From: Pseudanabaena sp.
GTDB taxonomy: Bacteria > Cyanobacteriota > Cyanobacteriia > Pseudanabaenales > Pseudanabaenaceae
Assembly (NCBI GenBank): GCA_003249035.1
Contig: QBMK01000010.1
Location: 43,707 to 107,706 of the forward strand
Reading direction: 5' to 3'
DNA: 64,000 bases
Shown piece after piece: positions 898-21,484 of this stretch. Each line of letters begins with the position of its first letter. Within the stretch, counting starts at the first letter, position 1. The translations under genes and the position numbers were made by a program. The notes below the pieces were generated by a model. That model made no database searches and was not told the origin of the DNA. It saw nothing but the letters and a program-made list of their open reading frames with translations.

Positions 898-949
898 CTA
901 AGAAAGCTGATTATACAATTGATAATTATTGCTATAGCAAGATCGCGCC

Positions 950-2800
950 ATGCCCCGCAAACAAACCGTAGAAATTATTCCCAGCCTTCAACAAGCTCTT
1001 GAAGCGAAAACTGTTGACGAGTTGAAAAAGCTTTATGAGCTGTTGCTAATTGATCAAAAATTGAGCCGCAAAGCCGATCTTGTGACTGCTATTTTGCAAG
1101 AAATTGAGGGATCGAAGATCAAGAAAATTTGGCAGAGATTAGATGATTTGCAGAAAGCCGCGATCGCAGAAGTCATACATTCATCGGGAAATGATTACCG
1201 TGCGGACTCATTTGTGGCTAAATATGGGCAAAGTCCCAATTTTGGAACAGGCGATCGCTACAGTTCAAGATATCAGCCATCACTATTGAGATTATTTTTC
1301 TATCAAGGCGTAATGCCATCTGACCTTAAGCAAGCTCTAATGGCTTTTGTTTCTAAGCCTCAAGCAACTCGTTTAAACGAAGTCGGTGATATAATTCCTG
1401 ATACATTTCTTGTGCGTCAACAAAGATATTGGAATGAGCAAGAGTATGAGGTTCCTTTGACAGTCTGTGAAATGGAACAGGTTGGTCAAAAAGATTTACT
1501 GTCGGTTTTACGTTTGATTCAATCGGGAAAAGTCTCTGTCAGTGATAAAACATCCTTACCCAGTGGCGCGACTGTGAAAGCGATCGCTGCGATTTTGTTG
1601 GGCGGTGATTTTTATGATGATCAACAACGCAAAGCGGAAGCACAGTATCATTACACAGCACCTTATGATGATATTGGGGCGATCAAAGCTTTTGCATGGA
1701 CAGCCCTATTGCAAGTGGGGAACATGGCAGAACTTTCTGGCACAAAGCTAGTTCTGACGAAGTCTGGGCTAAAGGCTTTGCAAGACCCGCCAGCTAAAAC
1801 TTTACAGACATTATGGAAGCGCTGGTTAAAGAATACGACCTTTGATGAATTTCGGCGCATTGATGAAATCAAGGGGCAAACTGGTAAAGGCTCAAAGGGT
1901 ATGACGGCGGTGGCAGGGCGACGCGAAGTGATTGCTACCGCTTTGAGTGAATGTGCTATTGGTAAATGGATTCAGTTCCCTGAATTCAGCAAGTACATGG
2001 TGGCAACTGGTCATCTGTTTGAAGTCACCCGTGATCCTTATGAGCTTTATATCTGTGAATCGGGATATGGGAATCTCGGATATTCGGGTAGCCATGACTG
2101 GAATATTCTGCAAGAACGATATATGCGCTGTCTCTTGTTTGAATATGCGGCGACCCTTGGTTTGATTGATGTTGGCTATGTTGCCCCAGGGGTTGCGTGG
2201 CGTGATTTTGGCGACTTATGGGGAACTGATGATCTACACTTTCTTAGCCGTTACGATGGCTTGATCTATTTTCGCTTAACTGCACTCGGAGCATATTGTT
2301 TGGGCTTGACCGAAAAATATCACCCGCCAGCGATCGCTAATAGTCAGACTTTGCGGGTATTGCCGAATCTAGAAATCGTGGCTTCAGGAAATGGGCTAAA
2401 TATTTCCGAAGCTTTGGTTCTCGATCTTTACGCTCAAAGGATTGCCGATCAGCAATGGCAGTTAGATTTGGATCGGCTTTTAACGGCGATCGAGGATGGA
2501 CATCAGGTTGTGGAATTAAAGCAAGTTCTAGAACAGAACAGTAGCGAACCTTTACCTGAATCCGCGCAGGAATTTCTGAACATGGCTTCAGAAAAAGCGA
2601 GTGGTTTGAGGGATTTAGGAGATGCGAGGTTAATTGAATGTGCTAGTTCTCATTTAGCAGCGTCGATTGCTAACGATCCGCTTACCAAGAAGTACTGCCA
2701 GCTTGTGGGTAGTCGTGCTTTGGTGGTTTTGGCTACTCATGAAGGGAAGTTTCGCAAAGCTCTTCGTCAAATTGGCTATGCTCTACCTCCAGTCAGGTGA
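950..2800 (+). CDS. Large uncharacterised protein with XPB/Ssl2-like helicase-associated domain
   Basis: A 616-residue protein with no helicase motor motifs (no Walker A or DEAH box seen). The N-terminal ~50 residues form a charged helical segment resembling SAP-like modules (DELKKLYELLL). The C-terminal part, from LRVLPNLEIVASG (about residue 468) through SEPLPESAQEFL, has the pattern of the helicase-C3 / XPB-Ssl2 N-terminal-like domain found beside DNA helicases: a beta strand, an aliphatic stretch, then Ala/Leu helices ending in a proline-rich LPES turn. This assignment is from pattern recognition only. It starts 52 bp after the integrase gene, in the same direction. Role unknown; DNA binding or a partner of a helicase is a guess. 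Confidence 0.6.
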   Translation: MPRKQTVEIIPSLQQALEAKTVDELKKLYELLLIDQKLSRKADLVTAILQEIEGSKIKKIWQRLDDLQKAAIAEVIHSSGNDYRADSFVAKYGQSPNFGTGDRYSSRYQPSLLRLFFYQGVMPSDLKQALMAFVSKPQATRLNEVGDIIPDTFLVRQQRYWNEQEYEVPLTVCEMEQVGQKDLLSVLRLIQSGKVSVSDKTSLPSGATVKAIAAILLGGDFYDDQQRKAEAQYHYTAPYDDIGAIKAFAWTALLQVGNMAELSGTKLVLTKSGLKALQDPPAKTLQTLWKRWLKNTTFDEFRRIDEIKGQTGKGSKGMTAVAGRREVIATALSECAIGKWIQFPEFSKYMVATGHLFEVTRDPYELYICESGYGNLGYSGSHDWNILQERYMRCLLFEYAATLGLIDVGYVAPGVAWRDFGDLWGTDDLHFLSRYDGLIYFRLTALGAYCLGLTEKYHPPAIANSQTLRVLPNLEIVASGNGLNISEALVLDLYAQRIADQQWQLDLDRLLTAIEDGHQVVELKQVLEQNSSEPLPESAQEFLNMASEKASGLRDLGDARLIECASSHLAASIANDPLTKKYCQLVGSRALVVLATHEGKFRKALRQIGYALPPVR

Positions 2801-2996
2801 TCAAATCTCATTATAAAATCACTGTTGCAGCAATTACCGATTATAAGAACCACAAGAGATTTTTTGAAAGTCTATTTTAAAGACTCGAAGACTTTGAGTG
2901 AGTTAACTTCCACTTTAGGTAATCTTCCAACGTAGGGAAATATTGTATAACCCCATCTATCCCTTCAGGTCTCCCCTTGAGATAGCCCTCTAAATA

Positions 2997-3203
2997 GGGC
3001 TTCCTGAAAAAGTACAAAAGCTCGCTATATAAGGGTTTTAAGCTTTTTTGCCATAACAAGTGCAAGGTTATAGCGTCTAGAGTCTCAAAACCCTTGCACT
3101 TCCGTGGAAAATCGCTGGGTAAATTGGGGAAATATGCTACAAAATATTATTTTGCAAGCTATATTGCCTCTAAATTCGCTCTGTAGACTTTTTCAGGAAG
3201 CCC
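2997..3203. mobile_element. Small inverted-repeat element (MITE-like), TA-flanked
   Basis: Perfect 18-bp inverted repeats occur at 2996-3013 and 3187-3204 (core GGGCTTCCTGAAAAAGT), enclosing about 207 bp with no plausible transposase. A TA dinucleotide lies immediately outside each end, compatible with a TA target duplication. The interior has its own 10-bp perfect stem, 3058-3067 paired with 3092-3101. This is the structure of a non-autonomous miniature element. The right end supplies the stop codon of the neighbouring P-ATPase gene. A 62-codon minus-strand frame across the left end was not accepted as a gene. Confidence 0.7.
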
Positions 3204-5941
3204 TAAGTAAGCGGTGCAAATCGCTTTAAAAATAGTGCGGGCAATATTACAGGAATGCCTGCACTAATAGAGACGAAAGCTTCGATTATGCTGATTGGTT
3301 GGGTATGAAATAGAGGATTGACGAAAGGTAATTGGCTAAAGAAAACTTGAAAGATGAAAACGCAAGCCACACCGATCGCAGGAATGTAGGCGATTTTATG
3401 AGTATGATCTTTGGCATAAGCGAATAGAGATGGAATACATTGACTGATACTCAATAGATAAAAAGTCTCGGCAGCAACGAGAGTATGTACTGCCATAGTG
3501 CGAGCTAAGTCGAGATTACCTGTAGATTGCGAAATCCATTCAAAAATGCCAAATGCGGCAATCAGATTAAAGGTGGAAATAATCAGGATGCGCCATAGTA
3601 ATTTGGGAGTTAATAGCGGTTCATGAGGGCTGCGGGGTGATCGCTGCATGATATCAGTGGATTTTGGCTCAAAGGCAAGGGTGGCACTAAGAGCAACGGA
3701 ACTGACCATATTTACCCAGAGAATCTGTACAGGCAAAATTGGCAGGGAGGCTGCCGCTAAAATTCCTACTAATATGGTCAGGGCTTCTCCACCATTGACA
3801 GGGAGGATAAATCCAATCGTTTTCAATAAATTGCCATAAACGTTGCGCCCTTCTTCGATCGCCGCTTCAATGGAGGCAAAGTTATCATCGGTTAAGATCA
3901 TATCGGCAGCTTCCTTAGCAACTTCTGTACCTGTAATGCCCATCGCTATGCCAATATCGGCTTGCTTTAAAGCAGGAGCGTCATTGACCCCATCCCCTGT
4001 CATTGCTACAATTTCACCCTTTGATTGTAAAGCTTTCACTAGGCGCAGTTTTTGTTCAGACGCAACCCGCGCAAATACGTTGCTGGTTTCCACCGCTTCC
4101 GCTAGGGCTTGATCATCCATATCCGCGAGTTGCTTGCCCGTAAATACGAGCGGATGTTGATCGTGGCTGAGTTCCATTTGATGAGCGATCGCGGCGGCGG
4201 TGAGCGCATGATCGCCCGTAATCATTTTTACTTGAATGCCTACAGAATGACAGGTACGCACGGCAGCGATCGCTTCGGCACGGGGTGGATCAATCATGCC
4301 TTGCAGTCCTAGAAATACTAAGCCAGCTTGAATATCTTCATGATCAATTGCCTGATGCTGAGCAGAAATTTCTTTCTTGGCAAAGGCGAGTACTCGTAAA
4401 CCTTGAGAGGCATTCTGAGCGACTATTTCCTCAATATGTTTATGTTCCAAATCGATTAATTCTCCCTTAGCATCCAATTGGCTATCGCATCGTTTTAGAA
4501 TCGATTCTGCTGAACCCTTCACATAAATCCTGTGGCGATCGGTTTCTTGCGTAAGGGGCTGATACAAGGTTGCCATATATTGAAACTTCGACTCAAAGGG
4601 AATTGTATCTAATCGCCTTTGTTCCTGCTCTAAATCTTGAATGGTTAGCCCAGCTTTCTCAGCAACGACAATCAATGCTCCTTCAGTGGGATCACCAACT
4701 ACATTCAACTGTCCATCCTTGGTTTGGATATGCGAATCATTGCATAATAAGCCACATTTTAGGCATTCTTGCAATGCGGTCAACTGCGCGATCTCTATGG
4801 GTTGATCTTCTTGCAAAATCTTACCTTTTGACTCATAACCCACTCCACTAACAGTGTAGGAATGTCCCCCAGCATAGATTGCTTGCACCGTCATCTGATT
4901 TTCGGTGAGCGTCCCCGTTTTGTCAGAACAAATTACAGTCGTACTACCGAGGGTTTCTACGGCTGGGAGTTTGCGAATAATTGCGTGTTGCTTTGCCATG
5001 CGTTCCACCCCGATCGCTAAGGTGACAGTCACCACCGCAGGCAGTCCTTCAGGAATCGCACTCACGGCTAGAGCCACTGCAGATTTAAACCCCTCTGTCC
5101 AAGTTCCACCTTTGCCCATCACTACCGCAAACATAAAGGCGGCTAATCCCAAAATAACGTACAACAGACTCTTGCTAAATTGCTCAATCTTGCGCGTGAG
5201 TGGGGTTTCCAATCCTGTGTTCTGTTCGATTAATTGCGAAATACGCCCAATCTCAGTTTGGTTAGCGATCGCTACCACAATTCCCTTGGCGGTTCCAAAT
5301 GTGACTAAGCTGCTGCCATACACCATGTTACGGCGATCGGCTAAAACCGTATCATCATCCTGAGGTTCAATTGTTTTTTGAACGGGAACCGATTCTCCTG
5401 TTAAAGCGGATTCACTTACCTGTAAATCACGCACAGCCACTAAGCGCAGATCCGCAGGTACTTTGTCGCCAGAGGTCAGCAACACCAGATCTCCTAATAC
5501 CAGTTCGCGGGAATTGATTTGCACTTTTTTTCCATCACGAATGATCGTAGCTTCAGTGGTTACGGATTTGGAGAGAGCGGCCATCGCATTTTCCGCTTTT
5601 GACTCTTGGATAAAGCCAATCACGGCATTAATCACCATTACACCGAGAATCACACCCGCATCTATCCATTCCTTGAGCAGTAGTGTCACGATCCCAGCGA
5701 TCAGCAAAATATAAATCAAAGGTTGATTAAATCCATCCAAGAACCGCAGTAACGCACTTTTTCCGACTTTGCCCTTGAGTTCATTAAATCCATAATGTTC
5801 CTGACGCTTAACTACTTCTGCCTTTGATAATCCTGTTTCTAAATCTGTTTTTAGATCTTTCACAGTATCAGTAATAGATTTCTGATACCATTGCTGTTTA
5901 GGTAGATTCTCAATATTAGATTCAATACTAGAAGGCGTCAT
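3203..5941 (-). CDS. P2-type cation-translocating ATPase
   Basis: Membrane pump that couples ATP hydrolysis to cation export through a phospho-aspartate intermediate. Order along 912 residues: N-terminal cation_ATPase_N region, TM1-2 (about 70-110), TGES at 181-184, TM4 with PEGLP at 297-301, phosphorylated Asp340 in SDKTGTLT, the nucleotide-binding domain, then a hinge with TGDGVNDAP and six C-terminal TM helices. The PEGLP loop and overall plan resemble PacL/SERCA-like pumps. TM6 reads WVNMVSSV, lacking the Asp of SERCA's NLVTDG, so Ca2+ specificity should not be assumed; Na+/K+ or another cation is possible. It lies 71 bp downstream of the DUF389 gene in the same direction. Its stop codon is formed by the edge of the inverted-repeat element at 2997-3203, so the C-terminus may be altered. 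Confidence 0.85.
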
Positions 5942-6012
5942 GAATCAGATACCTGAATGAATAGAGACTAGATGATTATCTTAACTTGTCTGACAGGCTA
6001 CTTGATTAGGAA

Positions 6013-7809
6013 TTAATTGTTTGCATTTAAACGTAACAATGCTCTACCATCCTGTGGTAATTGGGTGGGAGTCAATTCACTGGAAATAGCTGATAGAAAA
6101 GATATCCTGATTCGCTCTTGTCTGATTTTCCATTTGGTAAACAGATATAAGGAGATCGCGTTGTATCGTGATTTTTCAAAACTGAATGACTCTGAATTGC
6201 GCCGTGAAATTGATATATTCAGATTGAGTGAAGGATAATTTTTGAGTAAAGTGCCGATTTTGTCTAATGTGCTATTTGCCGATAATGGAACGATAGATTT
6301 ATTCTCTTCAAATAGAATTTCTCCTGCTGATGTATTGATATGTTCTAACTTGACATTCGCATCTTTGATATCTAATCGAGTGCGAATATCTTGAATCACT
6401 AACAATCGCGCATCATCACTCATATCGCGATCGCTGATATAGGTAATCAAAACTAGAATTGATTGGGCTTTACTCGTTGTCACCGCATAGTCGAGTAAAT
6501 TAGCCTGCGGCGGTAGAGCCAGATCGCTGAGAGAGGCATTTAGCTTTTGAAAAAGATTGACCTGTAACTCTTGAAAATTGGGCGCAGGAGTTTCTACTAC
6601 CGTTTTTACTTCTTCTTGTTTAGCTAGAACTTCGTTGGAAGCGATCGGAATTTCGTTGAGAGTAAATTGAATTTGTTTTGGTTCTTTATCAATTTTTTGA
6701 GCAAGTTCTTTAATATATTGTTCTTTTTCGATAGGCATGTAAAGTTTGTTGGTGAAAATATTTAGCTGTAGGTTGATCAGCCGATTCTGTTCACGGATGG
6801 AAACTCGTTCAATCGTGGATCGCGGCTGTCCATCATCAAGAGTACCAAAACCCTTTTGCCAGATCTCCGTGACATTGCGCTGTAAAAAGTTCTGTCGTTG
6901 TTTTTGAGCGACCTCATTACCTAAGCGACCAAAGGCATTACTCAGGGGAACTAAAAGCGCTAGAACCGCTAACAAACCTACCAGTAACCTTCCTGGTAAG
7001 CTACCAATCGGGCGTAACTTTTGTAAAAATGGATAGTTGCCAAGAAATTTCTGAATGATGTCACTTTCAGGATCGTTTGCTTCCCAAATTCTCACTTTTT
7101 CACGCACTGTATCTGTATCAATGTGTAGAGCAAGAAAAACAAGCAATGAGGAAAAGGCGATCGCCACCAGATTAGTGAGAAATAGCAATCCTCCGCCCCT
7201 TGCAGTTTGGAAGCCATCAGATAGATTTAGGCTTAAAGCAGTACCGATGCCATAGCCAACTACGCATAGAGGTGGCATGAGGGCGACGGCGATCGCGGCT
7301 CCTGGGATGGAGTTGACCACGCCTTTAATGGGACGACAGGTAGCTAATGCGCCGACGGCTCCCGAAAAAAGGGCGATTACCAGATCGAGGGTGTTCGGTT
7401 GAGTCCGCCCGACAATTTCGCTGGTAATTTCCTTAAAAGGCAGTGAGAAAATCAGGATGACTGCAAAACTAATCGCTACTGAACAACTCAATGTGAGATT
7501 AGCGATCGCCCGAGCTAGCAAGACAAAGTCCCCAGTTGCTAGAGAAAGCCCTAATGAGAGAATCGGTCCCATTAGCGGAGAAATTAGCATTGCGCCAATA
7601 ATTACTGCGGGGCTGTTGAGAATCAGACCAAGCGTGGCGATACCAGCCGCAAAAATAACCTGAAGCCAATAGGAAGCATCGCGTAAGGTGGCAGCCTGTG
7701 AGATTTCTAAATACACCTCGGCTTTACGATGTTCGTCTACGCCCATTTGCGTTCCTAGCCAATTACGAGAATTCTGCCATAGGGTCGAAATATCTTCGGG
7801 TTTATTCAT
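6013..7809 (-). CDS. DUF389 membrane protein with OmpA-like C-terminal part
   Basis: A 598-residue integral membrane protein of the DUF389 (TIGR00341-type) family; molecular role not established. About residues 40-215 contain six or so hydrophobic helices with the family-typical phrases GAMLISPLMGPI and AVALMPPLCVVGYG. Another TM (PGRLLVGLLAVLALLVPLS) lies at about 272-290. The soluble C-terminal half ends in a region (NSTLDKIGTLLKNYPSLNLNISI) with the look of an OmpA/MotB-like peptidoglycan-binding fold, suggesting a periplasmic tail. It is separated by 71 bp from the downstream P2 ATPase and probably cotranscribed with it. A hairpin at 7858-7912 lies just upstream and terminates the preceding minus-strand unit. 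Confidence 0.8.
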   Translation of the reverse strand: MNKPEDISTLWQNSRNWLGTQMGVDEHRKAEVYLEISQAATLRDASYWLQVIFAAGIATLGLILNSPAVIIGAMLISPLMGPILSLGLSLATGDFVLLARAIANLTLSCSVAISFAVILIFSLPFKEITSEIVGRTQPNTLDLVIALFSGAVGALATCRPIKGVVNSIPGAAIAVALMPPLCVVGYGIGTALSLNLSDGFQTARGGGLLFLTNLVAIAFSSLLVFLALHIDTDTVREKVRIWEANDPESDIIQKFLGNYPFLQKLRPIGSLPGRLLVGLLAVLALLVPLSNAFGRLGNEVAQKQRQNFLQRNVTEIWQKGFGTLDDGQPRSTIERVSIREQNRLINLQLNIFTNKLYMPIEKEQYIKELAQKIDKEPKQIQFTLNEIPIASNEVLAKQEEVKTVVETPAPNFQELQVNLFQKLNASLSDLALPPQANLLDYAVTTSKAQSILVLITYISDRDMSDDARLLVIQDIRTRLDIKDANVKLEHINTSAGEILFEENKSIVPLSANSTLDKIGTLLKNYPSLNLNISISRRNSESFSFEKSRYNAISLYLFTKWKIRQERIRISFLSAISSELTPTQLPQDGRALLRLNANN

Positions 7810-7857
7810 AGTTGCTTGCGCTTTTCCCTTCGCGATTTCTACTTAAGTCTAAACTTA

Positions 7858-7912
7858 AAGCCCAAAATATTGCACCGCCCACCACGCGGGCGGTACAATA
7901 TTTTTGGGCTTA
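7858..7912 (-). terminator. Strong hairpin after the GH65-HAD gene
   Basis: The left arm around 7858-7880 (AAGCCCAAAATATTGCACCG...) pairs almost perfectly with 7888-7911 across the 7-nt loop 7881-7887. The structure starts at the stop codon of the minus-strand GH65-HAD gene and precedes the DUF389 gene. This position and stem length fit a transcription terminator; the T tract is short. Confidence 0.7.
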
Positions 7913-10867
7913 TTTGCCTAATTTCGCTTGGATATCGCTCAAGTGGATACCTGTCAAATTTGGAAGAACCATACTGGCAGATCCGTTAAACCGATCGCTA
8001 TGTTCTTTAGGAGCAAGCCCGATTGCCCACATGCCTGCGGCGATCGCTGCCGCAACTCCTGCAGGCGCATCTTCCACCACAACGCATTTAGCAGGGGCAA
8101 TGCCGATCTGAGTAGCAGCAAAGAGAAATAGGTCAGGGGCTGGCTTGGGCTTCTCAACGCTGTAACCATCAGCGATCACATCTACTAGATCGGCTATGCC
8201 TAACTTAGCGATTACGGGTCGGGCATTCTTACTGGCGGAGGCGATCGCAATTTTTATTCCCGATCGTCTAAGTTCTTTTAACAGCTCAATTACTCCTGAT
8301 AAAACATCTTGGGGAGTGGTGTCTTGGATTGATTCCACATAGTAGCAATTTTTGCGATCCATCATCTCTTGGAGAGCCGCTTCGGAATAATGGCGATCGC
8401 CGACAATTAGCATCAGCGATTCTCTTCTTGCCACACCGCGCAGGGCTTCATTTGCCTTGCGATCAAAGGGAAGATTTTCTTCATTGGCTAGCTTCTGCCA
8501 AGCCCGATAATGGAATTCGGCAGTGTCCGTCAAAACTCCATCAAGATCGAAGATGAAACCTTGAATGTCAGGGAATGGAGCAAGCGCGGATGCTAAATCG
8601 AAACTATACCAAGTGTTATGCCATTGCAATTTGAATTTGAGATAAGTCCATGAATTAGGCAGGTGCGGATTTGCTACAGGTTTATTATCCTTCAGTTGAA
8701 TACCCCCAAATCCAAAAATTACAGCTTGCCAGATACCGCCTGCGGAAGCCGCATGAATACCGTCTGGGGTGTTACCGCGATTATCTTCAAGATCGACCAT
8801 GGCGGCTCGTAAAAAGTGATGATATGCCTCGGATGAAGCACCGATATTAGCGCCGATGATCGCGTGAATGCCAGAAGTCAGGGAAGAGCCATAGGTACTA
8901 TCGGTGCGAGGAGCGTAGTAGTTCCAATTCTTTTGCAGCCAGTCCTTGCGATCGCTGAATTCGGGATTGTCACGCATTAGGTAGAGGAGCATCAACACAT
9001 CAGGTTGCTTGAGGACTTGGCTCTCATTGGTTGCGTCCATGCCGAGAACTGCTTGAATTGAGCGATCGCGAGGTTCATAGGTACTTAAATCAATATTTTT
9101 CAGTTCAAAAAATCCATCACATTGTTCAATTACTTTTGCTTCTTGATTTTCTGGATTTTCTTGATTATAGGAGACATAGATTTGGGCGATCGCTTCTTTC
9201 CATTTTAGTGATTGCTCTGGGGAAAGTTGTAGCTTTTGAGATAATTTAGTAGCGCGATCGGGAAAGTTCTGCAGTAACCATTCATGGACTGCTACCGCCT
9301 TTTCTAAATGCCACTGCGCCATGCGATTAGTGAAAGTATTGTTGTTCACCTGCTCATGGTATTCATCGGCTCCGATGACTCCACAAAGCTCATAGCGTTC
9401 GAGGTTAGCATTCCATTCTAATCTGCTCATCCAAAAGAGCGCCGTATCGAGAATGATTTCCGCTCCATAATCTCGCAGCCAGAGATCGTCACCCGTAGCT
9501 TGCCAATATTGCCAGACAGCATAGGCAATGTCGGCGCTAATATGAATTTCGCGATCGCGACACCAGATTCTGACGGCTTTGGCATAGGGATCGTTGGGCA
9601 AAGACCAAAGGGGTGTCACTTCATCGCCAGTTGCCGCACTTTCCCAAGCAAACATTGCGCCTTTATAGCCACTATCACTTGCTTTGCGTCTTGCGCCATC
9701 AAGGGTGTGATAGCGATAGGTTAATAAATTGCGGGCGATCGCGGGATGGGTAAAGGTAAAAAAGGGCAGAATAAAAATTTCTGTATCCCAAAAAATATGC
9801 CCGCGATAGCCTAATCCTGACAAGGTTTTTGCAGGAATGCTGACTTGATCATTATGGGGAGATGCAGCGATCAACAGTTGAAACAGGTTATAACGCACGG
9901 CTAACTGTGCTTTAACATTGCCACCAATCTCAATGTCACTATGTTCCCAAACTGAGTTCCAAGCTTGTCGATGTGCTTCTAGGAGCGTTGCATAGAATGG
10001 AAGTCCCATCAATTTGTCTTGAGCCGCTTGAACGGGATTCTCGGTTAGCTGTGAGGTAAACAGGGTCACAATCTTCTCAATGTTGATTGTCTGTCCCTCG
10101 ACGACGTTAAAAGTGGCGATCGCTGTGGGATATCCTGGGGTATTTGTCAGTTGCAAATTTGCTTCGACATCAATCACAGAGAGTTTTGCCGCCATGCCCA
10201 GTTCGATTCGTGAGCCACGAGTTCGCACCTGTAGCCAAATTCCTTCACTATCAGATTGGCGGCGCGAAGCGCCGCCAATCTGATGATTTTGATCGATCTC
10301 AATCTTGCCTTGATCTAATTGTTCCCAATGATTAAAGCCCTGATTGTCGGAATAGCCATTGATACTGGCTTGCACCTCAATCGTTCCCTTAAAGTTAATT
10401 GCCGTGATTTGGCAGTGCAGACCTAATACTTGAGGATCGGCAAAGCTCGCAAAGCGCTCAAACCGCAAGTCTATGGTATTTCCCTTGGGGCTACACCAAC
10501 GCAGCGATCTCGTTAGTAATCCACAACGCAAGTCAAGCTGACGTTCATAATTGATGATTTCACCGCGATCGAGCCGAAATCGTTCACCGTTCATTATTAT
10601 TAGCAATGAGAGCCAATCAGGACAATTGACTAGCTCCGTATAGACCACAGGCACGTCATCATAGACTCCATGCACCAAGCTAGTTGCCCAAGCATGGGGG
10701 TAGCCTTCCTCAAAGCTGCCTCGCGTTCCTAAATAGCCATTGCCAATGGTAAATACGGTTTCTCTAGAATGCAACTGTTCGGGATCGAATTGAGATTCGG
10801 TCAAAGTCCAATCTGTATAAATTAAATCAGGGGAGATTGGCAAATCAGGGGAGCTTGGAGTTTTCAT
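7910..10867 (-). CDS. GH65 disaccharide phosphorylase fused to beta-phosphoglucomutase (copy 1)
   Basis: A two-domain enzyme. The first ~750 residues are a glycoside hydrolase family 65 phosphorylase, a family that splits maltose, trehalose, kojibiose or related alpha-glucosides with phosphate to give beta-glucose 1-phosphate. It has the WDTEIF motif at 360-365 and GADEYHEQ with the presumed general acid Glu502. From about residue 771 a HAD beta-phosphoglucomutase follows (FDLDGVLTDTA with Asp774/Asp776, then LRGVARRES, SASKN and VVVEDAPAG), which would convert beta-G1P to glucose 6-phosphate in the same polypeptide. The substrate cannot be read from sequence. An in-frame palindrome at 10250-10284 inserts about 16 residues absent from the paralogue at 34809-37796. 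It follows the sucrose synthase-like gene by one base, so the two are translationally linked. Confidence 0.88.
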   Translation of the reverse strand: MKTPSSPDLPISPDLIYTDWTLTESQFDPEQLHSRETVFTIGNGYLGTRGSFEEGYPHAWATSLVHGVYDDVPVVYTELVNCPDWLSLLIIMNGERFRLDRGEIINYERQLDLRCGLLTRSLRWCSPKGNTIDLRFERFASFADPQVLGLHCQITAINFKGTIEVQASINGYSDNQGFNHWEQLDQGKIEIDQNHQIGGASRRQSDSEGIWLQVRTRGSRIELGMAAKLSVIDVEANLQLTNTPGYPTAIATFNVVEGQTINIEKIVTLFTSQLTENPVQAAQDKLMGLPFYATLLEAHRQAWNSVWEHSDIEIGGNVKAQLAVRYNLFQLLIAASPHNDQVSIPAKTLSGLGYRGHIFWDTEIFILPFFTFTHPAIARNLLTYRYHTLDGARRKASDSGYKGAMFAWESAATGDEVTPLWSLPNDPYAKAVRIWCRDREIHISADIAYAVWQYWQATGDDLWLRDYGAEIILDTALFWMSRLEWNANLERYELCGVIGADEYHEQVNNNTFTNRMAQWHLEKAVAVHEWLLQNFPDRATKLSQKLQLSPEQSLKWKEAIAQIYVSYNQENPENQEAKVIEQCDGFFELKNIDLSTYEPRDRSIQAVLGMDATNESQVLKQPDVLMLLYLMRDNPEFSDRKDWLQKNWNYYAPRTDSTYGSSLTSGIHAIIGANIGASSEAYHHFLRAAMVDLEDNRGNTPDGIHAASAGGIWQAVIFGFGGIQLKDNKPVANPHLPNSWTYLKFKLQWHNTWYSFDLASALAPFPDIQGFIFDLDGVLTDTAEFHYRAWQKLANEENLPFDRKANEALRGVARRESLMLIVGDRHYSEAALQEMMDRKNCYYVESIQDTTPQDVLSGVIELLKELRRSGIKIAIASASKNARPVIAKLGIADLVDVIADGYSVEKPKPAPDLFLFAATQIGIAPAKCVVVEDAPAGVAAAIAAGMWAIGLAPKEHSDRFNGSASMVLPNLTGIHLSDIQAKLGK
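10250..10284. repeat. 35-bp perfect palindrome inserted in frame in a coding region
   Basis: Arms of 16 bp (10250-10265 and 10269-10284; core GATTGGCGGCGC) are perfectly complementary around a GAA loop. It encodes residues near QIGGASRRQSD of the GH65 protein. The paralogous gene reads straight through at this place without those residues, so this looks like an inserted palindromic element that kept the frame. Confidence 0.75.
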
Positions 10868-10868
10868 G

Positions 10869-13292
10869 TTATCGCTGCATATGTTCTGCTAAAATTTGCT
10901 CGGCTCTAGGTTTGTAAAGCAAATAGAAGAGAGCTTCTAGATAACGTTGCCGCGCCTCTCGGTTGTCAGAATAGATACAGTGCCAAAAGCTGTAAATCTT
11001 CGCTAGCAGTAGGAGCTTTTGGGTATGATTTTGCCAGTTATATTGCTCTTGAATGCGATGAATTGCGCGATCGGAAAGCTGAGACCAGTATTCGCGATCG
11101 CTCTTGCCTTGATTGAAAAATCGCAAAATCTTTTTCGCAGTGCCATCTAAGTCAGTGGGGTTGATATGAAAGCCATTGAGGCAGTCTTGAATAATTTCTA
11201 AGGAACCGCCAAACTGAGTCGCAAAGGTGGGTAATCCAGAAATCATCGCTTCGAGAATGGTGCGTCCAAAAGACTCAAACTTGGCAAAATGCACGAAAAT
11301 TCCTTGGCGATCGGCGATCGCCCGATAGACTTCTCCCATATCGCTATTGGAAAAACGCATACCTAACCAGCGAATATTCCCATGCAAATTGTATTGACTA
11401 ATCAGAGCGTGCAGTTTAGCCAGTTCCTTTGCCGCATCAAAGTCGTTGACATCGCCAACCTCTAAAGCATCGGTAACTAAAATCAAGTTACATTCTTTCT
11501 GCAACTCAGGACTACTCCCAAAGCATTCTACTAAACCAGTCAGATTTTTAATCGTAGCGATCGTTGCCACAGCGAGGATTGGGTGTAGGTCAGGCTGGGC
11601 TAGATAGCCACAAATATGCGCGTCTTCCTGTTTAAAGAGTAACGAATGAATGCGGGTTCGCTGTTCAAGATTGCGATTTTCTGTCTGATGATAAGGAAAG
11701 AATATTTGCTCATTCACTCCAGGCGGTACGCGATTGAACCTCGGACTAAACAAGTCAATGCCGTTAGTGACATGATACAAATTTGGCATCGTAAAGCATT
11801 GATAGGAATCATACTGACCAACACTTTCTGGGGTTCCCATAATTTCTTGATAGGAAGAGGTGATGATGAAATCAGCCGCATTCATCCCAATTAGCTCAGC
11901 CGTAAATTGGGCGGAAAAATGATGCTGCGGCTCTAAGTCCTGCCAATAAAGGTCACTGAATAGGTGTTTTGTTTTTTCTAGGGAATGGGCAATTTGGCAA
12001 TGGATGGCATTGAAATGATTTGCTAGTAGGGAAGCGACTAGATTTCCATCACTATAATGACCAATAATTAAATTTGGTTTTCCACCAAGTTTTGCCATTA
12101 ACGCCGTTTCTGCATCCACCGCAAAGCTTTCAAGATAAGGCCAAATTTCAGACTTGGAAATCCAATGTTCGGTCACGGCCGGATTGAATTTTTGAAATGG
12201 TACGCGCAGAAACCAAGCATTGTCAGTACCATCAATCTTTTCCCAAGCAAGATTGCATTGCGTTCCCATACAATTAGGAATCAGGCGCGTGAGAACAACC
12301 ACTTGAGGATGAATATCTAGCAAGTTTAGCCCCGCTTGTTGCATATTGATCTGGAGTTGTTTCTCGATACTGCGAGCTTGCTCCAGCACATAGGCGGCTT
12401 GGCTGCGGGTTTCTGGTAATCCTAATGTACTTTCTTGTCCCAACCAACCATGAATGGAAATGGAGACGACGCGAAAAATTGCAGGAACTCTTGCTACGAA
12501 GGCATCCAAAATCGCAGGTTCAGGATCTTCAAGCAGGTGATTGAGCAGCTCCATCGTTTCGCGAGTACGCCCAACTGTGTTTCCCCACCCTGCTTCAAAG
12601 CCAAGGGCTTGAAGATCGTGATCAACTTTTGCATAGGGAAGATCGCCTTCCACCTCGCCTAAAAACTTAAGCGCGAGTTTTACCTGTTTTGCTAGTTCGA
12701 TCCCTGACTCAATTTGAGTATTGATCAATAGCTGTATTCTGTCATGCTCAAGTATATGCAGAGCCATAAACAGCGCCTCTACCCATTGCGGGAAATCGTT
12801 CATTAGCTTATTACATAGGTAGTTGCTAAGAAACGTTAGCCCCTGCCCCATATTTCTCGGATCGCTAATACGTGGAGAGCCTTCGTAGAAGGGTTTAAAG
12901 TCAATATTGAGGATGTGGGGCTGTTCGCGATTAACTTGGCGATCGCGCAGATTTAGTAATTCATGAACGTCCATCTGAGTCGCTTTGGTGAGATCGGTAG
13001 TTAGCTTCCACATTTGCTGGCTACCAATCCAAGGGCGCAGCACTAACCAAACACTTTTCTCATCTAATTTCTCATCTAAGATAAGTTCGTGGATATAATT
13101 GATCAACTGACTTAGAGAAGAACTGTGATAAGCCTGAATGGGCTGGGGTAATTGTTCACAACACTCCGTAAATGCTTGAAGAATTTCGTTTCGCAAGAAA
13201 TAGCGCTTCCCAGTGCCGCGTAAATTGACAACTAGCTGCTGTAGAGTATTTCTCTCGTCACTATTTAAAACTTCTTGGATTAGTTTATGCAT
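10869..13292 (-). CDS. Sucrose synthase-like GT4 glycosyltransferase, divergent active site
   Basis: 807 residues, the full length of a sucrose synthase (sucrose + UDP/ADP to fructose + NDP-glucose). It carries the N-terminal regulatory region, SIHGWLGQ at 279-286, TRLIPNCMGT, HFSAQFTAELIGMN with the conserved His458, the NGID loop, and the EX7E pair Glu673/Glu681 in ESFGRTILE. Two canonical features are changed. The nucleotide-phosphate loop (L-P-D-T-G-G-Q in plant enzymes) reads LPETRSQ, so Gly-Gly is Arg296-Ser297. The Arg of MARLDRVKN is Thr577 (VATIATIKN), while Lys582 is kept. A different donor or acceptor, weak activity or a regulatory role is therefore possible. It is the first gene of a unit with GH65-HAD. 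The promoter region carries the conserved block at 13322-13441. Confidence 0.8.
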   Translation of the reverse strand: MHKLIQEVLNSDERNTLQQLVVNLRGTGKRYFLRNEILQAFTECCEQLPQPIQAYHSSSLSQLINYIHELILDEKLDEKSVWLVLRPWIGSQQMWKLTTDLTKATQMDVHELLNLRDRQVNREQPHILNIDFKPFYEGSPRISDPRNMGQGLTFLSNYLCNKLMNDFPQWVEALFMALHILEHDRIQLLINTQIESGIELAKQVKLALKFLGEVEGDLPYAKVDHDLQALGFEAGWGNTVGRTRETMELLNHLLEDPEPAILDAFVARVPAIFRVVSISIHGWLGQESTLGLPETRSQAAYVLEQARSIEKQLQINMQQAGLNLLDIHPQVVVLTRLIPNCMGTQCNLAWEKIDGTDNAWFLRVPFQKFNPAVTEHWISKSEIWPYLESFAVDAETALMAKLGGKPNLIIGHYSDGNLVASLLANHFNAIHCQIAHSLEKTKHLFSDLYWQDLEPQHHFSAQFTAELIGMNAADFIITSSYQEIMGTPESVGQYDSYQCFTMPNLYHVTNGIDLFSPRFNRVPPGVNEQIFFPYHQTENRNLEQRTRIHSLLFKQEDAHICGYLAQPDLHPILAVATIATIKNLTGLVECFGSSPELQKECNLILVTDALEVGDVNDFDAAKELAKLHALISQYNLHGNIRWLGMRFSNSDMGEVYRAIADRQGIFVHFAKFESFGRTILEAMISGLPTFATQFGGSLEIIQDCLNGFHINPTDLDGTAKKILRFFNQGKSDREYWSQLSDRAIHRIQEQYNWQNHTQKLLLLAKIYSFWHCIYSDNREARQRYLEALFYLLYKPRAEQILAEHMQR

Positions 13293-14564: not shown

Positions 14565-14998
14565 TTACTCATCATCTCTTTTGGGAGAAGGGGTTGGCGG
14601 ATGAGGGAGGTCTTTATTTGGAGAATCGGCTAAAGATGGCGAATCATCATCAACAGGAAGTTGTGATTTTGCGATGCGTTCCTGTTCCTGTGAAACCCAT
14701 TCCCATGCGACTAAGCAGCCAAGAGTCAATCCTCCCAACATCAGCGATAATGTCCATGAGAACTGACTAGGAAACTGGCGATCGAGCCAGACCCCTAAGA
14801 CCATTCCTAGCATGGTCGGCGCAACGGTTGACCAACCGACCAAACCTGTAAAGCCTAAACCAAACCAAACTCCACCATAAGGCGCTGTTTCACGAGCATG
14901 GATTTTGCGCTGTTCTTTATTACCGATCGCCTTGGTAAAGTCTGAGGTCGGCGATCGCAGTTCAGATTGCAATTCACGAGATTCAGGATCGGGGTTAT

Positions 14999-15002
<4 letters not shown>
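14565..15002 (-). CDS. atpQ: N-ATPase subunit AtpQ (AtpI/AtpZ-like membrane protein)
   Basis: 145 residues with two hydrophobic helices (about 45-70 and 80-105; GLGFTGLVGWSTVAPTMLGM and LSLMLGGLTLGCLVAW) and charged, Pro-rich ends. In N-type ATPase operons this position, directly after the epsilon subunit gene, is occupied by AtpQ, thought to help assembly or ion handling of the Fo part. Its ATG overlaps the atpC stop (ATGA), so it is translationally coupled. It is last in this operon. Assignment rests on context plus the two-TM AtpI/Z-like pattern. Confidence 0.8.
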
Positions 15003-16887
<1,885 letters not shown>

Positions 16888-16904
16888 TTAGAATATTTGA
16901 GACA

Positions 16905-17807
16905 CTAGCCTTGACTTAACTCAAAGCCTGAAATAATTTCTAATAACTCACCTGTAATTGCCGATTGCCGCTTTTGTCGAAACTCACCCTTAAACTCATC
17001 GAGCCGTTCTTCGATGTTCTTTTCGGCAACTTGCATTGAGACTAGACGGCTAGCATTTTCACTGGCAAGTGATTCTCCAAAGGCGCGATAGAGAGCGATA
17101 AAGAAATATTGTCGTAAAAGCGAAGAGATTAAAACATCACTGGGTATCGTAAACATTGGGATGGTGCGCGATCGCCATTCTTGGTTTTCGATTTGTTGCA
17201 ACCATGCACGATCAAGCGGTAGAAGTAAATGCTGCGATGGTTTGTAAGTTGTATTGGAATGTAAATTGTTGTAGAACAAGATGATTTTTGTGATTTGTTG
17301 GCGATCGCGCCATTCGGCAATATGCAGTAACATCTCTTGCACCATGGGCGTGATCCCCGACAGAGAACTGGGCATAACAAAGTTCTGCTCGATCTGATAA
17401 CCTTCATTTTCCAAATGTGGGATAATTCGCGATCCAATGGCAAAAACTACCAACTGTTCGGGGGTGATTTGTAATTTTTCGATTTCGGCGATCGCATAGC
17501 GGCTAATCTGTTCATTAAATTGACCACACATCCCTTGTTCAGAACCGAAAATAAGCACGCCACAACGACCAATAGAACTTATTACAAGTGAGTCTGGATC
17601 GATATTAGAAAGATTATTATTTGTATGGGTAGACTTGAGGACAACGTGCAAACCCATCTCAATTGTGCTGGTATATTCGGACAGGGAAGTAACAGCATGT
17701 TCAAATTGATGGATATTCACCGCCGCGAGAACTTTCATCATTTTGACGATCGCCTTTAATTCTTTGGCAGTATGAATTTGTCGCTGTAGAAATTCAAGGG
17801 ATGCCAT
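16905..17807 (-). CDS. atpG: N-ATPase subunit gamma
   Basis: 300-residue rotor shaft subunit. The N-terminal coiled-coil helix begins MASLEFLQRQIHTAKELKAIVKMMKVLA, and the C-terminal helix contains the family motif ALYRAFGESLASENASRLVSM followed by an Arg/Lys-rich tail (RQKRQSAITGELLEIISG). It starts 2 nt after the atpA stop. The sequence is diverged from the chloroplast/cyanobacterial gamma and I see no regulatory Cys insertion, consistent with an N-ATPase. Confidence 0.9.
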   Translation of the reverse strand: MASLEFLQRQIHTAKELKAIVKMMKVLAAVNIHQFEHAVTSLSEYTSTIEMGLHVVLKSTHTNNNLSNIDPDSLVISSIGRCGVLIFGSEQGMCGQFNEQISRYAIAEIEKLQITPEQLVVFAIGSRIIPHLENEGYQIEQNFVMPSSLSGITPMVQEMLLHIAEWRDRQQITKIILFYNNLHSNTTYKPSQHLLLPLDRAWLQQIENQEWRSRTIPMFTIPSDVLISSLLRQYFFIALYRAFGESLASENASRLVSMQVAEKNIEERLDEFKGEFRQKRQSAITGELLEIISGFELSQG

Positions 17808-17809
17808 AA

Positions 17810-19369
17810 TTATTCCTCTAAAGCCCGATCAATAACCTTGGCGATCGCCGTTTCTGCAACCTTAAGCAAAGCTTCACGATCCTTATCTGCTAAGACATTG
17901 CCCTTTTCAATTTGCAAACATAGCTCGGCTAATTGGGCAGGGATAGCGGCGGCAATTTCTTGTTCGGCGATCGCAATTTTGGCCATTGGCACGCGATCGA
18001 GTAAACCCGCCGTAACTGAAAGCAATACCGCAATTTGGACAGCCGCTGGCATGGGTGCATATTGCTTTTGCTTAAGAATTTCGCGCACTTTACGACCCCG
18101 TTCTAAGGTGAGCCGCGTTGATTCTTCTAGGCGCGTACCAAACCGCGAGAAAGATTCTAGTTCTTCAAATTGCGAATAGGATAGCCTCAAATCTCCTGCA
18201 ACCGCTCGATAGCTGGAAAGTTGGGTTTTGCCGCCAACCCGTGAAACTGACTTACCAACCTCGATCGCAGGTAGGACACCCTTTTGAAACAGAATTGGCG
18301 AAAGATAAATTTGTCCATCGGTAATCGAAATCAGATTTGTGGGAATATAAGCTGCGATATTTTGGGCTTCAGTTTGCAGAATTGGCAATGCAGTTAAAGA
18401 GCCGCCGCCATGCTCGTCATTGAGATGGGTTGAGCGTTCTAATAAGCGCGAATGAATGTAAAAAATATCTCCTGGGTAAGCCTCTCGCCCTGGGGGGCGG
18501 CGCATGAGCAGTGATAATTCGCGATAGGCGCGGGCATGGTTCGTCAGGTCATCGTAAACAATCAGTACATCTCGCCCTTGTTCCATAAAATATTCAGCCA
18601 TTGCCGTCGCCGTGTAGGGAGCGATATACCGCAATCCTGGGGGTTCTTCTCCTGCGGCCATAACGACGGTGGTGTATGCCATTGCGCCATGTTCGTAGAG
18701 GTCGGCGATTAGTTTAGCAACAGCGGCACTGCGCTGCCCGATCGCACAGTAAATGCAGAGAATATTTTTGTCTTTTTGGTTAATGATCGTATCGAGAGCG
18801 ATGCCGCTTTTACCCGTTTGGCGATCGCCTAAAATCAATTCTCTCTGTCCGCGCCCAATGGGGATCAAGGCATCGATCGCTTTAATGCCAGTTTGTAAAG
18901 GCACATTGACGGGAGCGCGATCCATAATCGCTGGAGCCTCACGTTCGGCAGGACGGCGTTGGGATGTGCGGATTAAACCTTTGCCATCAAGGGGACGACC
19001 GAGGGGATCAACGACTCGCCCCAGCAACGTTTCGCCGACAGGGACATCGAGAACTTTACCCGTGCGCCTTACTTCCGTTCCCGACTGAAGCGTATCGTTA
19101 GAATCCAGTAAAATCACGCCCACTTCTTCGGGATCAAGGTTAAACACCATACCCAAACTGCCGCCAGTAAATCGCACGATTTCTTCAGCTTGCACATGGG
19201 GTAAGCCGACCACTCTAGCAATGCCTTTGCCAATGGATTGAATGATGCCAATTTCTCGCGATCGCAGGTGTGATGGATGGCGATCGATGACCTCTGTATA
19301 AGTGGCAAAGGTATCTTCCAAAACAGTCTGTAATGATTTTTCTAAAGCTATTTCAGATTGATTGGTCAT
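17810..19369 (-). CDS. atpA: N-ATPase subunit alpha
   Basis: 519-residue non-catalytic nucleotide-binding subunit of F1. Walker A GDRQTGKS is at 181-188; [36 protein letters not shown] and the SRVGG segment are typical. The frame is open further upstream (to 19468), but the ATG at 19369 is preceded by AGAGGAG at a short distance and matches the family start, so the longer form is rejected. It follows atpF by 20 nt. Confidence 0.95.
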
Positions 19370-19389
19370 GACTCCTCTAGCAAATATTT

Positions 19390-20190
19390 CTAAACTGCGA
19401 CCGATTCTTCGGCAAAAACTGTCACTAAATTCTCGGTAATTGCATCTAAATAAGCATCCATACTCCAAGCGAGTTTATAGCCAGTGCCGCGCAATTCAAT
19501 GCCACAAATGAGATTAGATTGAATTTCATAATTGAGTTCCAACTTGCTCGAATTATCTTTACTCGAATCATCAAAATATGTTTGCAAAATTTTCGAGATA
19601 TTCTCACCAATATCCGACGGTAGCTCGAATGTACTTACCAAGGTCAAGGGAATAACATCTGTGGTAGAAACGGTTAAAGTCTTTACTAATTCACTACGCT
19701 CTGACTCATTCAGATTTTGCAATTTTTGTAAAAACACCCGCGCCATTTGCGTTTCCAGATCTGATTCGGACAGGTCTGCCAACACGCGCCGCACTGTTGC
19801 TTGTAATTGCTGCATGGTGCGATGGCTAACTTCCCGCAAAAAAGAATCTTTCTGACGTTGAAGCATTGATTGCCATTGCGATCGCTCTGTTTCCACAGAC
19901 TCATGCATCTCTTCTAGTAAATGTTCACGAGTTTGCTCCGTTTCTAGTTTGGCTTCAGCCAGTAACTCTAAGCGATGGGTTTCTAATTCTTGTTGCTTAG
20001 CTTGATAGCGTTCTACCTCCTCTTGAGCTTTTTCCTGTTGTTGTGATGCCGAATCGAGGTTGTCGCGAATGGTATCTTGGCGCTGTTGCATCGCCTTGGT
20101 AATTGGCTTATAGAGCCAACGTTGCAGCACAAAAATTAACACCAAAAAGTTAATAATTTGCGCGAAGAAGGTAAACCAGTCAATTGACAT
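19390..20190 (-). CDS. atpF: N-ATPase subunit b (long form)
   Basis: 266 residues: one N-terminal TM helix ([21 protein letters not shown], about 5-25), then a long charged Glu/Gln-rich coiled coil (about 30-150) and a globular C-terminal part resembling the delta-like region. The N-ATPase operon carries no separate delta gene, and this long b subunit is characteristic of the type. It forms the peripheral stalk linking Fo to F1. It starts 4 nt after atpE and is followed by atpA. Confidence 0.88.
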
Positions 20191-20194
20191 TGTC

Positions 20195-20500
20195 TCAACC
20201 TCCTAACTTGGCAACGGCGGCGATCGCGTAATTCCAAAATGGATTGGCAAACAACAAAATCAATGAAATCACAAAGCAATAAATTGCCACAGACTCGATA
20301 AAGGCTAGTCCCACAAACAGGGTGCGGGTAATCGTACTCGATGCATCGGGTTGTTGGGCGAGGGAACTAAGCGCTTGAGCAACGGATTTACCTTCACCAA
20401 GGGATGGGGCGATCGTGCCAATTGCCATTGTTAGCCCTGCCATGATGATCGAGACAGTGCCAATAATCGTAACTAATAAATATAGAGATTCAGCTTTCAT
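20195..20500 (-). CDS. atpE: N-ATPase subunit c with two-carboxylate Na+ motif
   Basis: 101-residue hairpin protein forming the rotor ring, taking the ATG at 20500 (an upstream ATG at 20524 would add 8 residues). Helix 1 carries GEG with Glu36; helix 2 carries ESVAIY with Glu69, Ser70 and Tyr74. The spacing of 33 residues equals that of Gln32/Glu65 in Ilyobacter c. Ser at E+1 and Tyr at E+5 are the known Na+ ligands. Two facing carboxylates are the pattern described for Na+-coupled rotors such as that of Fusobacterium. Na+ coupling is therefore predicted. The start overlaps the atpB stop. Confidence 0.92.
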   Translation of the reverse strand: MKAESLYLLVTIIGTVSIIMAGLTMAIGTIAPSLGEGKSVAQALSSLAQQPDASSTITRTLFVGLAFIESVAIYCFVISLILLFANPFWNYAIAAVAKLGG

Positions 20501-21155
20501 GACTAGCGGCACTAATATAAACAACGGTTAAAATAGAGAAAACATAGGCTTGGATGATCCCTGTCAGCAAGCCCAAAGCCTGCATCACAATCGGGAAAAA
20601 TAATGGCGCGAGGGAAACTAAAATTGCCCCGATCAGGACTCCACTCATCACATTGCCAAATAAACGCACGGTCAAAGCTAGAGTCCGAGACAATTCGCTC
20701 ACGATCGTTAATGGTAATAGAATCGGACTAGGTTCTAGATAATGATGCAGGTATTTACCGATTCCTTGCTGGCGGATACCAAAAAAAGGAACTGCAAAAA
20801 AAACCGATATCGCCAGAGCCGCTGTGGTGGAGAGCGATCCAGTAGGCGGTTGGAAAAAGGGAACGATCGCCAAAAGATTTGCCGTAGCAATAAAAATAAA
20901 TAGGGTTCCAATAAAGGGCAAATAGCGATTGGGAGTCTGTCCACTAGTTTCTTTAATCTGTTCCTGTAAATTAAGCACCAGTATTTCTAGAACGTTTTGC
21001 CACTTCGATAGTTTTGTCTCAATCGAAAGATGGCGGGTCACTAGCCAAGAACCAATCCCCAACAGCAGCATCACTAACCATGTGAAGACCAAAGTGGCAT
21101 TAATCGACACAAATTTCCATTGCCAATAGACAATCTGATCGGGGCTAATATTCAT
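20490..21155 (-). CDS. atpB: N-ATPase subunit a
   Basis: 221-residue stator channel subunit, all-helical membrane protein. The essential Arg164 lies in LTVRLFGNVMSG, with the companion sequence LSRTLALTV just before it, and helix five (ALGLLTGIIQAYVFSILTVVYI) follows. It overlaps atpR by 4 nt and atpE by about 11 nt, so expression is coupled. Subunit a provides the half-channels for the ion carried by the c ring. Confidence 0.92.
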   Translation of the reverse strand: MNISPDQIVYWQWKFVSINATLVFTWLVMLLLGIGSWLVTRHLSIETKLSKWQNVLEILVLNLQEQIKETSGQTPNRYLPFIGTLFIFIATANLLAIVPFFQPPTGSLSTTAALAISVFFAVPFFGIRQQGIGKYLHHYLEPSPILLPLTIVSELSRTLALTVRLFGNVMSGVLIGAILVSLAPLFFPIVMQALGLLTGIIQAYVFSILTVVYISAASHES

Positions 21156-21484
21156 CGTTCATTACCAGATGCGATTGGATCTTGGATGAAATTTCGGACT
21201 GGGATTTCTGGCTGAAATTTACGGACGAGGTGATTGCGTACCAACATAAATGCGCCTACACAAACGAACAGATGCCAGATCGCATTCTCTTTGGTGAGCA
21301 TTACTACCAGTGCAAATCCTGCGATCGCGATCGCCAAGCGACCAAAAAAGCTACCGAGGGTCAACAGAATTGGATTGTCAGCATTCGGCAATTGCTGAAC
21401 CGTCATCCATAATCCCCGAAAGTAAATATTTCCTAACAAAATTCCTAACGCTAGCGTAATCGGTAAAAAGAAAAGACTATTCAT
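21152..21484 (-). CDS. atpR: N-ATPase subunit AtpR
   Basis: 110-residue membrane protein with three hydrophobic helices (about 1-22, 38-62 and 68-85). AtpR is a signature protein of N-type ATPase operons and normally precedes atpB, as it does here; it has been proposed to interact with the c subunit. Here it is the first gene of the operon, immediately downstream of conserved block B (21504-21623), whereas atpD is first in the usual order. Confidence 0.85.
   Translation of the reverse strand: MNSLFFLPITLALGILLGNIYFRGLWMTVQQLPNADNPILLTLGSFFGRLAIAIAGFALVVMLTKENAIWHLFVCVGAFMLVRNHLVRKFQPEIPVRNFIQDPIASGNER

Follow-up and report, generated by a model that had tools for sequence, protein, structure and literature searches.

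A sucrose synthase homologue, apparently of SusB type, that lacks canonical phosphate-site residues and is paired with a GH65 phosphorylase-like gene in cyanobacteria

A sucrose synthase homologue without the phosphate loop

What can a sucrose synthase do once residues that hold the phosphates of its sugar nucleotide have been replaced? The question is raised by a gene in the 64,000-nucleotide stretch of Pseudanabaena DNA analysed here (henceforth the window), coding for a sucrose synthase homologue that we refer to as SuS*. It is followed on the same strand by a gene for a fusion protein, GH65-HAD. The features concerned, with residues placed by alignment to AtSUS1, are:

10869..13292, minus strand: SuS*, 807-aa homologue of sucrose synthase, apparently of SusB type
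12402..12407, minus strand: codons of Arg296-Ser297, replacing AtSUS1 Gly302-Gly303
11985..11987, minus strand: codon of His436 (AtSUS1 His438), catalytic His, kept
11562..11564, minus strand: codon of Thr577, replacing AtSUS1 Arg580
11547..11549, minus strand: codon of Lys582 (AtSUS1 Lys585), phosphate ligand, kept
11250..11276, minus strand: E-X7-E motif, Glu673 to Glu681 (AtSUS1 Glu675 and Glu683), kept, with Arg677 replacing Leu679
7910..10867, minus strand: GH65-HAD, kojibiose-phosphorylase-like GH65 with a fused beta-phosphoglucomutase, 985 aa

The SuS* reading frame is intact on the minus strand, and the same coordinates read on the plus strand contain many stops. GH65-HAD starts 1 nt downstream of the SuS* stop codon; the first-pass annotation had described a full-length protein coupled to a disaccharide phosphorylase. 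In a profile search SuS* scored 1026.7 bits against TIGR02470 (cut-off 810.4), and the presence of SUS_N, EPBD and both GT-B parts amounts to a full-length architecture. The closest solved structures are those of NeSUS (4RBN, E 4.6e-196) and then AtSUS1 (3S27, E 2.2e-170). An AlphaFold model of SuS* built from five sequences was too poor for use (mean pLDDT 44.7, pTM 0.30).

Alignment with AtSUS1 (3S27) and NeSUS (4RBN) bears out both replacements that had been read from the sequence, the Gly-Gly loop having become Arg296-Ser297 and the motif arginine, Arg580 of AtSUS1, having become Thr577; neither the phosphate loop nor this phosphate ligand of sucrose synthases has a match in SuS*. The claimed retention of the E-X7-E glutamates and of Lys582 holds as well. 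The annotation had also named His458 as kept, and that residue is present, but the catalytic histidine is His436, which is present too. These positions had been described as contacts of the sugar nucleotide in plant sucrose synthase; for the loop, the arginine and the lysine this view is correct, since a study of bean SUS attributes pyrophosphate coordination to Gly302, Gly303, Arg580 and Lys585 of AtSUS1 (PMC11688632). Compared with plant and bacterial sucrose synthases of family GT4 (AtSUS1 3S27-3S29, NeSUS 4RBN), SuS* shares the architecture, His438, Lys444, Lys585, Glu675, Glu683 and Gln304, whereas, besides the loop and Arg580, it is without Asp582 (now Ala), Arg583 (Thr) and Gly611 (Asp), and it has Lys for Arg382, Met for Asn654, His-Phe for Gln670-Pro671 and Arg for Leu679 (all in AtSUS1 numbering).

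Loss of the phosphate residues tracks linkage to GH65-HAD

A sucrose synthase homologue was found in 75 of 386 sampled cyanobacterial genomes. Residues were counted in an alignment of 62 full-length homologues plus AtSUS1, in which 37 homologues are GH65-linked, i.e. are followed on their own strand by GH65-HAD no more than three genes away. In this sample, which was gathered by similarity to SuS* itself and whose SuS* genomes come mostly from one family (f7, by inference of the Nostocales), Gly302 is found in 0/37 linked and 25/25 unlinked homologues, and the same holds for Arg580, with Lys at this position in two of the linked ones. The two losses thus go together in a subfamily that adjoins GH65-HAD genes (37/37 against 0/25), a co-occurrence that the first-pass annotation had proposed to look for. 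Asp582 and Arg583 follow the same pattern (1/37 and 0/37 linked, 25/25 and 24/25 unlinked), Lys replaces Arg at position 382 in every linked homologue, and an Arg has been gained at position 679 in 33 of the 37. The catalytic residues persist, H438 in 37/37 and E675 in 36/37. The second Gly of the loop is still present in 27 of the linked homologues; the Arg-Ser loop is an extreme form seen in Pseudanabaena and Chamaesiphon.

In a tree computed with the active-site columns removed, all 37 linked homologues fall on one side of a single branch (SH-aLRT 100), and the SuS* of this locus groups with them (SH-aLRT 100). Since they form one clade, we see here one origin followed by faithful retention and not 37 independent events. 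Nine more members, classed by motif, have GH65-HAD directly downstream by their coordinates, and across the 386 genomes this arrangement was found in 39 of the 39 that carry SuS*. Loss of Gly302 and Arg580 is a fixed trait of a subfamily, not the peculiarity of one gene. In one member (L084, in genome G338) Val has replaced the first E-X7-E glutamate (E675 of AtSUS1), the rest being intact.

Sugar columns are constant and phosphate columns are relaxed

Some alignment columns were assigned to sugar or nucleotide contacts on what we take the AtSUS1 structure to show. The others follow published contacts (PMC11688632, PMC7264703). With this assignment, the phosphate/nucleotide columns of the SuS* clade reach entropies of 1.77 (302), 1.64 (580), 1.79 (611), 2.44 (613) and 2.00 (654) for a GT-B mean of 0.90, and the sugar columns lie at 0 (287, 304, 382 and 438) or 0.18 (444 and 675). 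Lys585, Arg648 and Glu683 are invariant across the clade. Most of the phosphate/nucleotide columns have relaxed to variability rather than being swapped for new constants; the near-fixed new residues, His670, Phe671 and Arg679, lie within the E-X7-E loop or adjoin it. Because the phosphate columns are relaxed, SuS* has probably lost the use of an NDP in the usual manner.

In TeSPS, Leu335 of the E-X7-E loop reorients the phosphates of UDP (PMC7264703), and as this residue corresponds by motif position to 679, Arg679 of SuS* would sit at the phosphates. The TeSPS mutants H158A and E331A are inactive and R249A is weakened, not abolished (PMC7264703); the three residues are taken here as counterparts of H438, E675 and R580 by motif position, without an alignment.

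The GH65-HAD partner and glucosylsucrose synthase

The best solved relative of GH65-HAD is kojibiose phosphorylase (3WIQ, E 1.1e-148), compared with E 1.8e-107 for another GH65 entry, 4KTP, which we take to be glucosylglycerol phosphorylase. The C-terminal part matches the beta-phosphoglucomutase profile TIGR01990 above cut-off, and a pattern search located the catalytic-acid motif GxDE[YFW]HE in 35 of 38 partners. Kojibiose is an alpha-1,2 diglucoside. The substrate of 3WIQ is likewise an alpha-1,2-glucoside, but GH65-HAD differs from this enzyme in its fused beta-phosphoglucomutase and in its predicted substrate, alpha-1,2-glucosylsucrose, a prediction drawn from homology and genomic context, as specificity is not readable from sequence alone.

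Such compounds are known from Anabaena, which under salt builds up a series of sucrose derivatives with glucose at position 2 of the glucose moiety, the sucroglucans (PMC4390843). Glucosylsucrose synthase (GSS; TeGSS, alr1000) makes them from UDP-glucose and sucrose (PMC9909042). The portions of that paper covered here name no enzyme that degrades them, nor did we find a degradation route in the portions of the glucosylsucrose literature covered here. GSS (7FG9, 7FGA) resembles SuS* in being a GT-B protein that acts on sucrose, and its gene shares genomes, and at times a cluster, with SuS*-GH65; unlike SuS* it has about 360 aa, depends on UDP-glucose, builds oligomers and is encoded by a separate gene.

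With thresholds of E <= 1e-90 for GSS and E <= 1e-150 for GH65-HAD, the 386 genomes include 74 with GSS, 51 with GH65-HAD and 50 with both (Fisher p 3e-43, phylogeny ignored). In other words, GSS is present in 50/51 genomes with GH65-HAD and in 24/335 others, and all 39 SuS* genomes of the sample carry it. The sole GH65-HAD genome without GSS, G175, is of genus g54; two further genomes of this genus score right at the GSS threshold. SuS* was not found in 12 of the 51 GH65-HAD genomes; these, along with the 24 GSS genomes that have no GH65-HAD, indicate that neither GH65-HAD nor GSS needs SuS*.

The genes also lie close together in some genomes. GSS adjoins SuS*-GH65 in the two basal members of the clade (G360, and G229 with a codirectional GSS-SuS*-GH65) and lies within about 7 kb of the pair in G300 and G334. 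In G005 and G308, GSS lies near a GH65-HAD gene that has no SuS* beside it. The host of the window has its own copy on another contig, C22:

C22:159722-160738: host GSS, E 3e-149 to 7FG9

It is the middle gene of an SPP-GSS-SPS cluster that also includes an invertase gene, recognised by eye; SPS had been thought absent from the host, an idea we rejected as a short SPS adjoins GSS and SPP there. In two other Pseudanabaena (G395, G396) SuS*-GH65 is followed by SPS and SPP and, further on, an amylosucrase-like gene (SPP and amylosucrase by eye). Loci L127, L128, L129 and L131 of other Pseudanabaena show GSS-SPS and then a gene whose product, some 750 aa long, looks by eye like a glycogen-debranching enzyme; a similar gene adjoins SuS* at L089. 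A 359-aa gene beside L125, considered as a sucrose synthase fragment, proved to be a glucosylsucrose synthase, as is a 363-aa gene beside L089.

What SuS* may do

The reading that we favour, by a little over even chances, is that SuS* has kept a sucrose pocket and lost the ordinary NDP-phosphate site within an operon that mobilises alpha-1,2-glucosylsucroses. For mobilisation of glucosylsucrose by SuS*-GH65-HAD as such, context, co-occurrence and homology make a good case, and we consider it likely. GSS would extend sucrose with UDP-glucose to [Glc-alpha1,2]n-sucrose, as the literature on TeGSS and alr1000 describes. From homology and context, the GH65 domain would phosphorolyse the alpha-1,2 bonds to beta-glucose 1-phosphate, which the HAD domain would turn into glucose 6-phosphate. 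SuS* itself may act on sucrose or on the oligomer's sucrose end, and do so with no conventional nucleotide.

Catalysis independent of a nucleotide, in which Lys582/Arg677 would hold phosphate or the transfer would go to a sugar, is a serious candidate at somewhat less than even chances. The near-universal retention of His438 and Glu675 leads us to favour such processing over a pure sensor. A GT4 fold in which phosphate replaces the NDP-sugar has a precedent in the retaining trehalose phosphorylase of this family, which keeps its Arg/Lys phosphate ligands, whereas SuS* retains the Lys only. The more explicit proposal, that SuS*, independently of any nucleotide, uses phosphate or a sugar as partner to cleave or transfer the glucosyl group of sucrose or glucosylsucrose, we advance tentatively; if true, it would give cyanobacteria a fully phosphorolytic or transglycosylating sucroglucan route.

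A non-catalytic role, with SuS* as a sucrose-binding partner or regulator of GH65, is about as tentative. The protein would be a pseudoenzyme that binds sucrose or a sucroglucan and regulates or docks GH65-HAD, breakdown then responding to the sucrose level, and in this fuller form we regard it as somewhat unlikely. Invariant sugar-site columns next to relaxed phosphate columns, and the strict pairing with GH65-HAD, are what one would expect of it, as is the member without Glu675, whose presumed TeSPS counterpart E331 is needed for activity (PMC7264703). However, conservation of H438, K585, E683 and, nearly always, E675 goes beyond the apparent needs of binding, and GH65-HAD does occur without SuS* in other genomes.

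Less probable still is an enzyme that continues to depend on an NDP with altered affinity. As a rival to the favoured reading this would be a sucrose synthase with changed affinity or choice of nucleotide that completes sucroglucan breakdown by splitting the sucrose left over into NDP-glucose and fructose, Arg677 (position 679) standing in for Arg580, and in this form too we think it unlikely. Speaking against the favoured reading, a nucleotide may still bind, since the clade never varies at K585 and E683, which are nucleotide contacts in sucrose synthase or SPS, and R249A of TeSPS lowers activity but leaves some. R648 is invariant too, Arg679 is frequent, the catalytic H438 and, in all but one member, E675 are kept, the TIGR02470 score is above cut-off, and cleavage of sucrose would be the logical final step after GH65. 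Against this, columns 302, 580, 611, 613 and 654 have relaxed with no new constants. Some other function altogether seems very improbable. SuS* was also weighed as the missing glucosylsucrose synthase and rejected in that role as the leading idea: every SuS* genome has GSS as a gene of its own, and the enzyme it encodes is already characterised (PMC9909042).

Selection and duplication

The host genome holds a second SuS*-GH65 pair, 88-89% identical and with the same residue changes, and SuS* orthologues in named Pseudanabaena records share 84-88% identity. By simple Nei-Gojobori counting, dN/dS between the two host copies is 0.141 for SuS* and 0.140 for GH65-HAD, and comparisons of SuS* orthologues give 0.12-0.16. 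A dN/dS of about 0.14 is the mark of purifying selection, and SuS* is therefore maintained, which agrees with the earlier claim that it is kept for some function. Decay of the gene with neutral active-site changes is extremely improbable, for although both changes would cripple an ordinary sucrose synthase, every full-length member retrieved is free of stops, these dN/dS values equal those of the GH65 partner, and the sugar-site residues are invariant over many cyanobacterial families.

Close to SuS*-GH65 lie genes for a tyrosine recombinase (100-897) and a P-type ATPase whose homologues accompany the second pair, on contig C22 (L009), which suggests duplication of a mobile segment (window 100-13292, C22 L009). 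In P. biceps the orthologous pair is on a record titled as a plasmid. Another genome of the genus (G193) has a canonical-type sucrose synthase gene interrupted by stops and split into two pieces on two contigs:

L045, C54:94408-95904: piece of the G193 canonical-type sucrose synthase
L053, C89:553-1572: piece of the same gene

Relationship to SusB

Two sucrose synthase genes are named in Anabaena, susA (all4985) and susB (all1059), and two in N. spumigena CCY9414, susA (nsp24720) and susB (nsp48150) (PMC3610870). Genome G284 has a canonical-type gene without a GH65 neighbour at 2.45 Mb and a GH65-linked one at 4.85 Mb, an order that fits the N. spumigena tags. By this gene order the GH65-linked clade appears to be SusB of the Nostocales, and cyanobacterial SusB (all1059, Ava_3753, nsp48150) would belong to the same clade as SuS*. 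In the cyanobacterial literature covered here, including work on the metabolism of heterocysts and on responses to drought and salt, SusB is counted as an ordinary sucrose synthase, with no mention of a lost phosphate site or a GH65 partner. If the clade neither makes nor cleaves sucrose with an NDP, inferences drawn from SusB studies will need revision.

Several published observations would be compatible with a sucroglucan role. Nitrogen fixation by an alr1000 mutant is confined to anaerobic conditions (work cited in PMC9909042), N. flagelliforme lacking a functional orrA has lowered susB (PMC13131328), and the variabilis paper PMC4046671 is among this literature. The alr1000 phenotype, the strong expression of susB in heterocysts and the lack of a growth or sucrose phenotype in a susB mutant would all fit one pathway. 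SuS* and GH65-HAD are proposed as candidate consumers of glucosylsucroses, a series of solutes induced by salt and heat; the synthase of the series was identified in 2022. A phage-resistance study mentions a mutation in a sucrose synthase, in a strain that has a second mutation too (PMC10811720), and it carries no weight in the argument here.

Other genes in the window

Upstream of SuS*, at 14565-21484 on the minus strand, are F1Fo-type ATPase genes that resemble N-ATPases in gene order and sequence, as judged by eye. An island of central-carbon genes on the plus strand (25428-51052) encodes phosphoketolase, ribulose-phosphate epimerase, class I aldolase, TIM, phosphoglucose isomerase, transaldolase, phosphoglucomutase, a carbohydrate phosphorylase with DUF3417, an isoamylase-like protein, acetate kinase and a P-type ATPase, and looks like a fermentative set for sugar mobilisation. 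Within it, at 34809-37796, is a third GH65-HAD gene, 69% identical to the SuS* partner.
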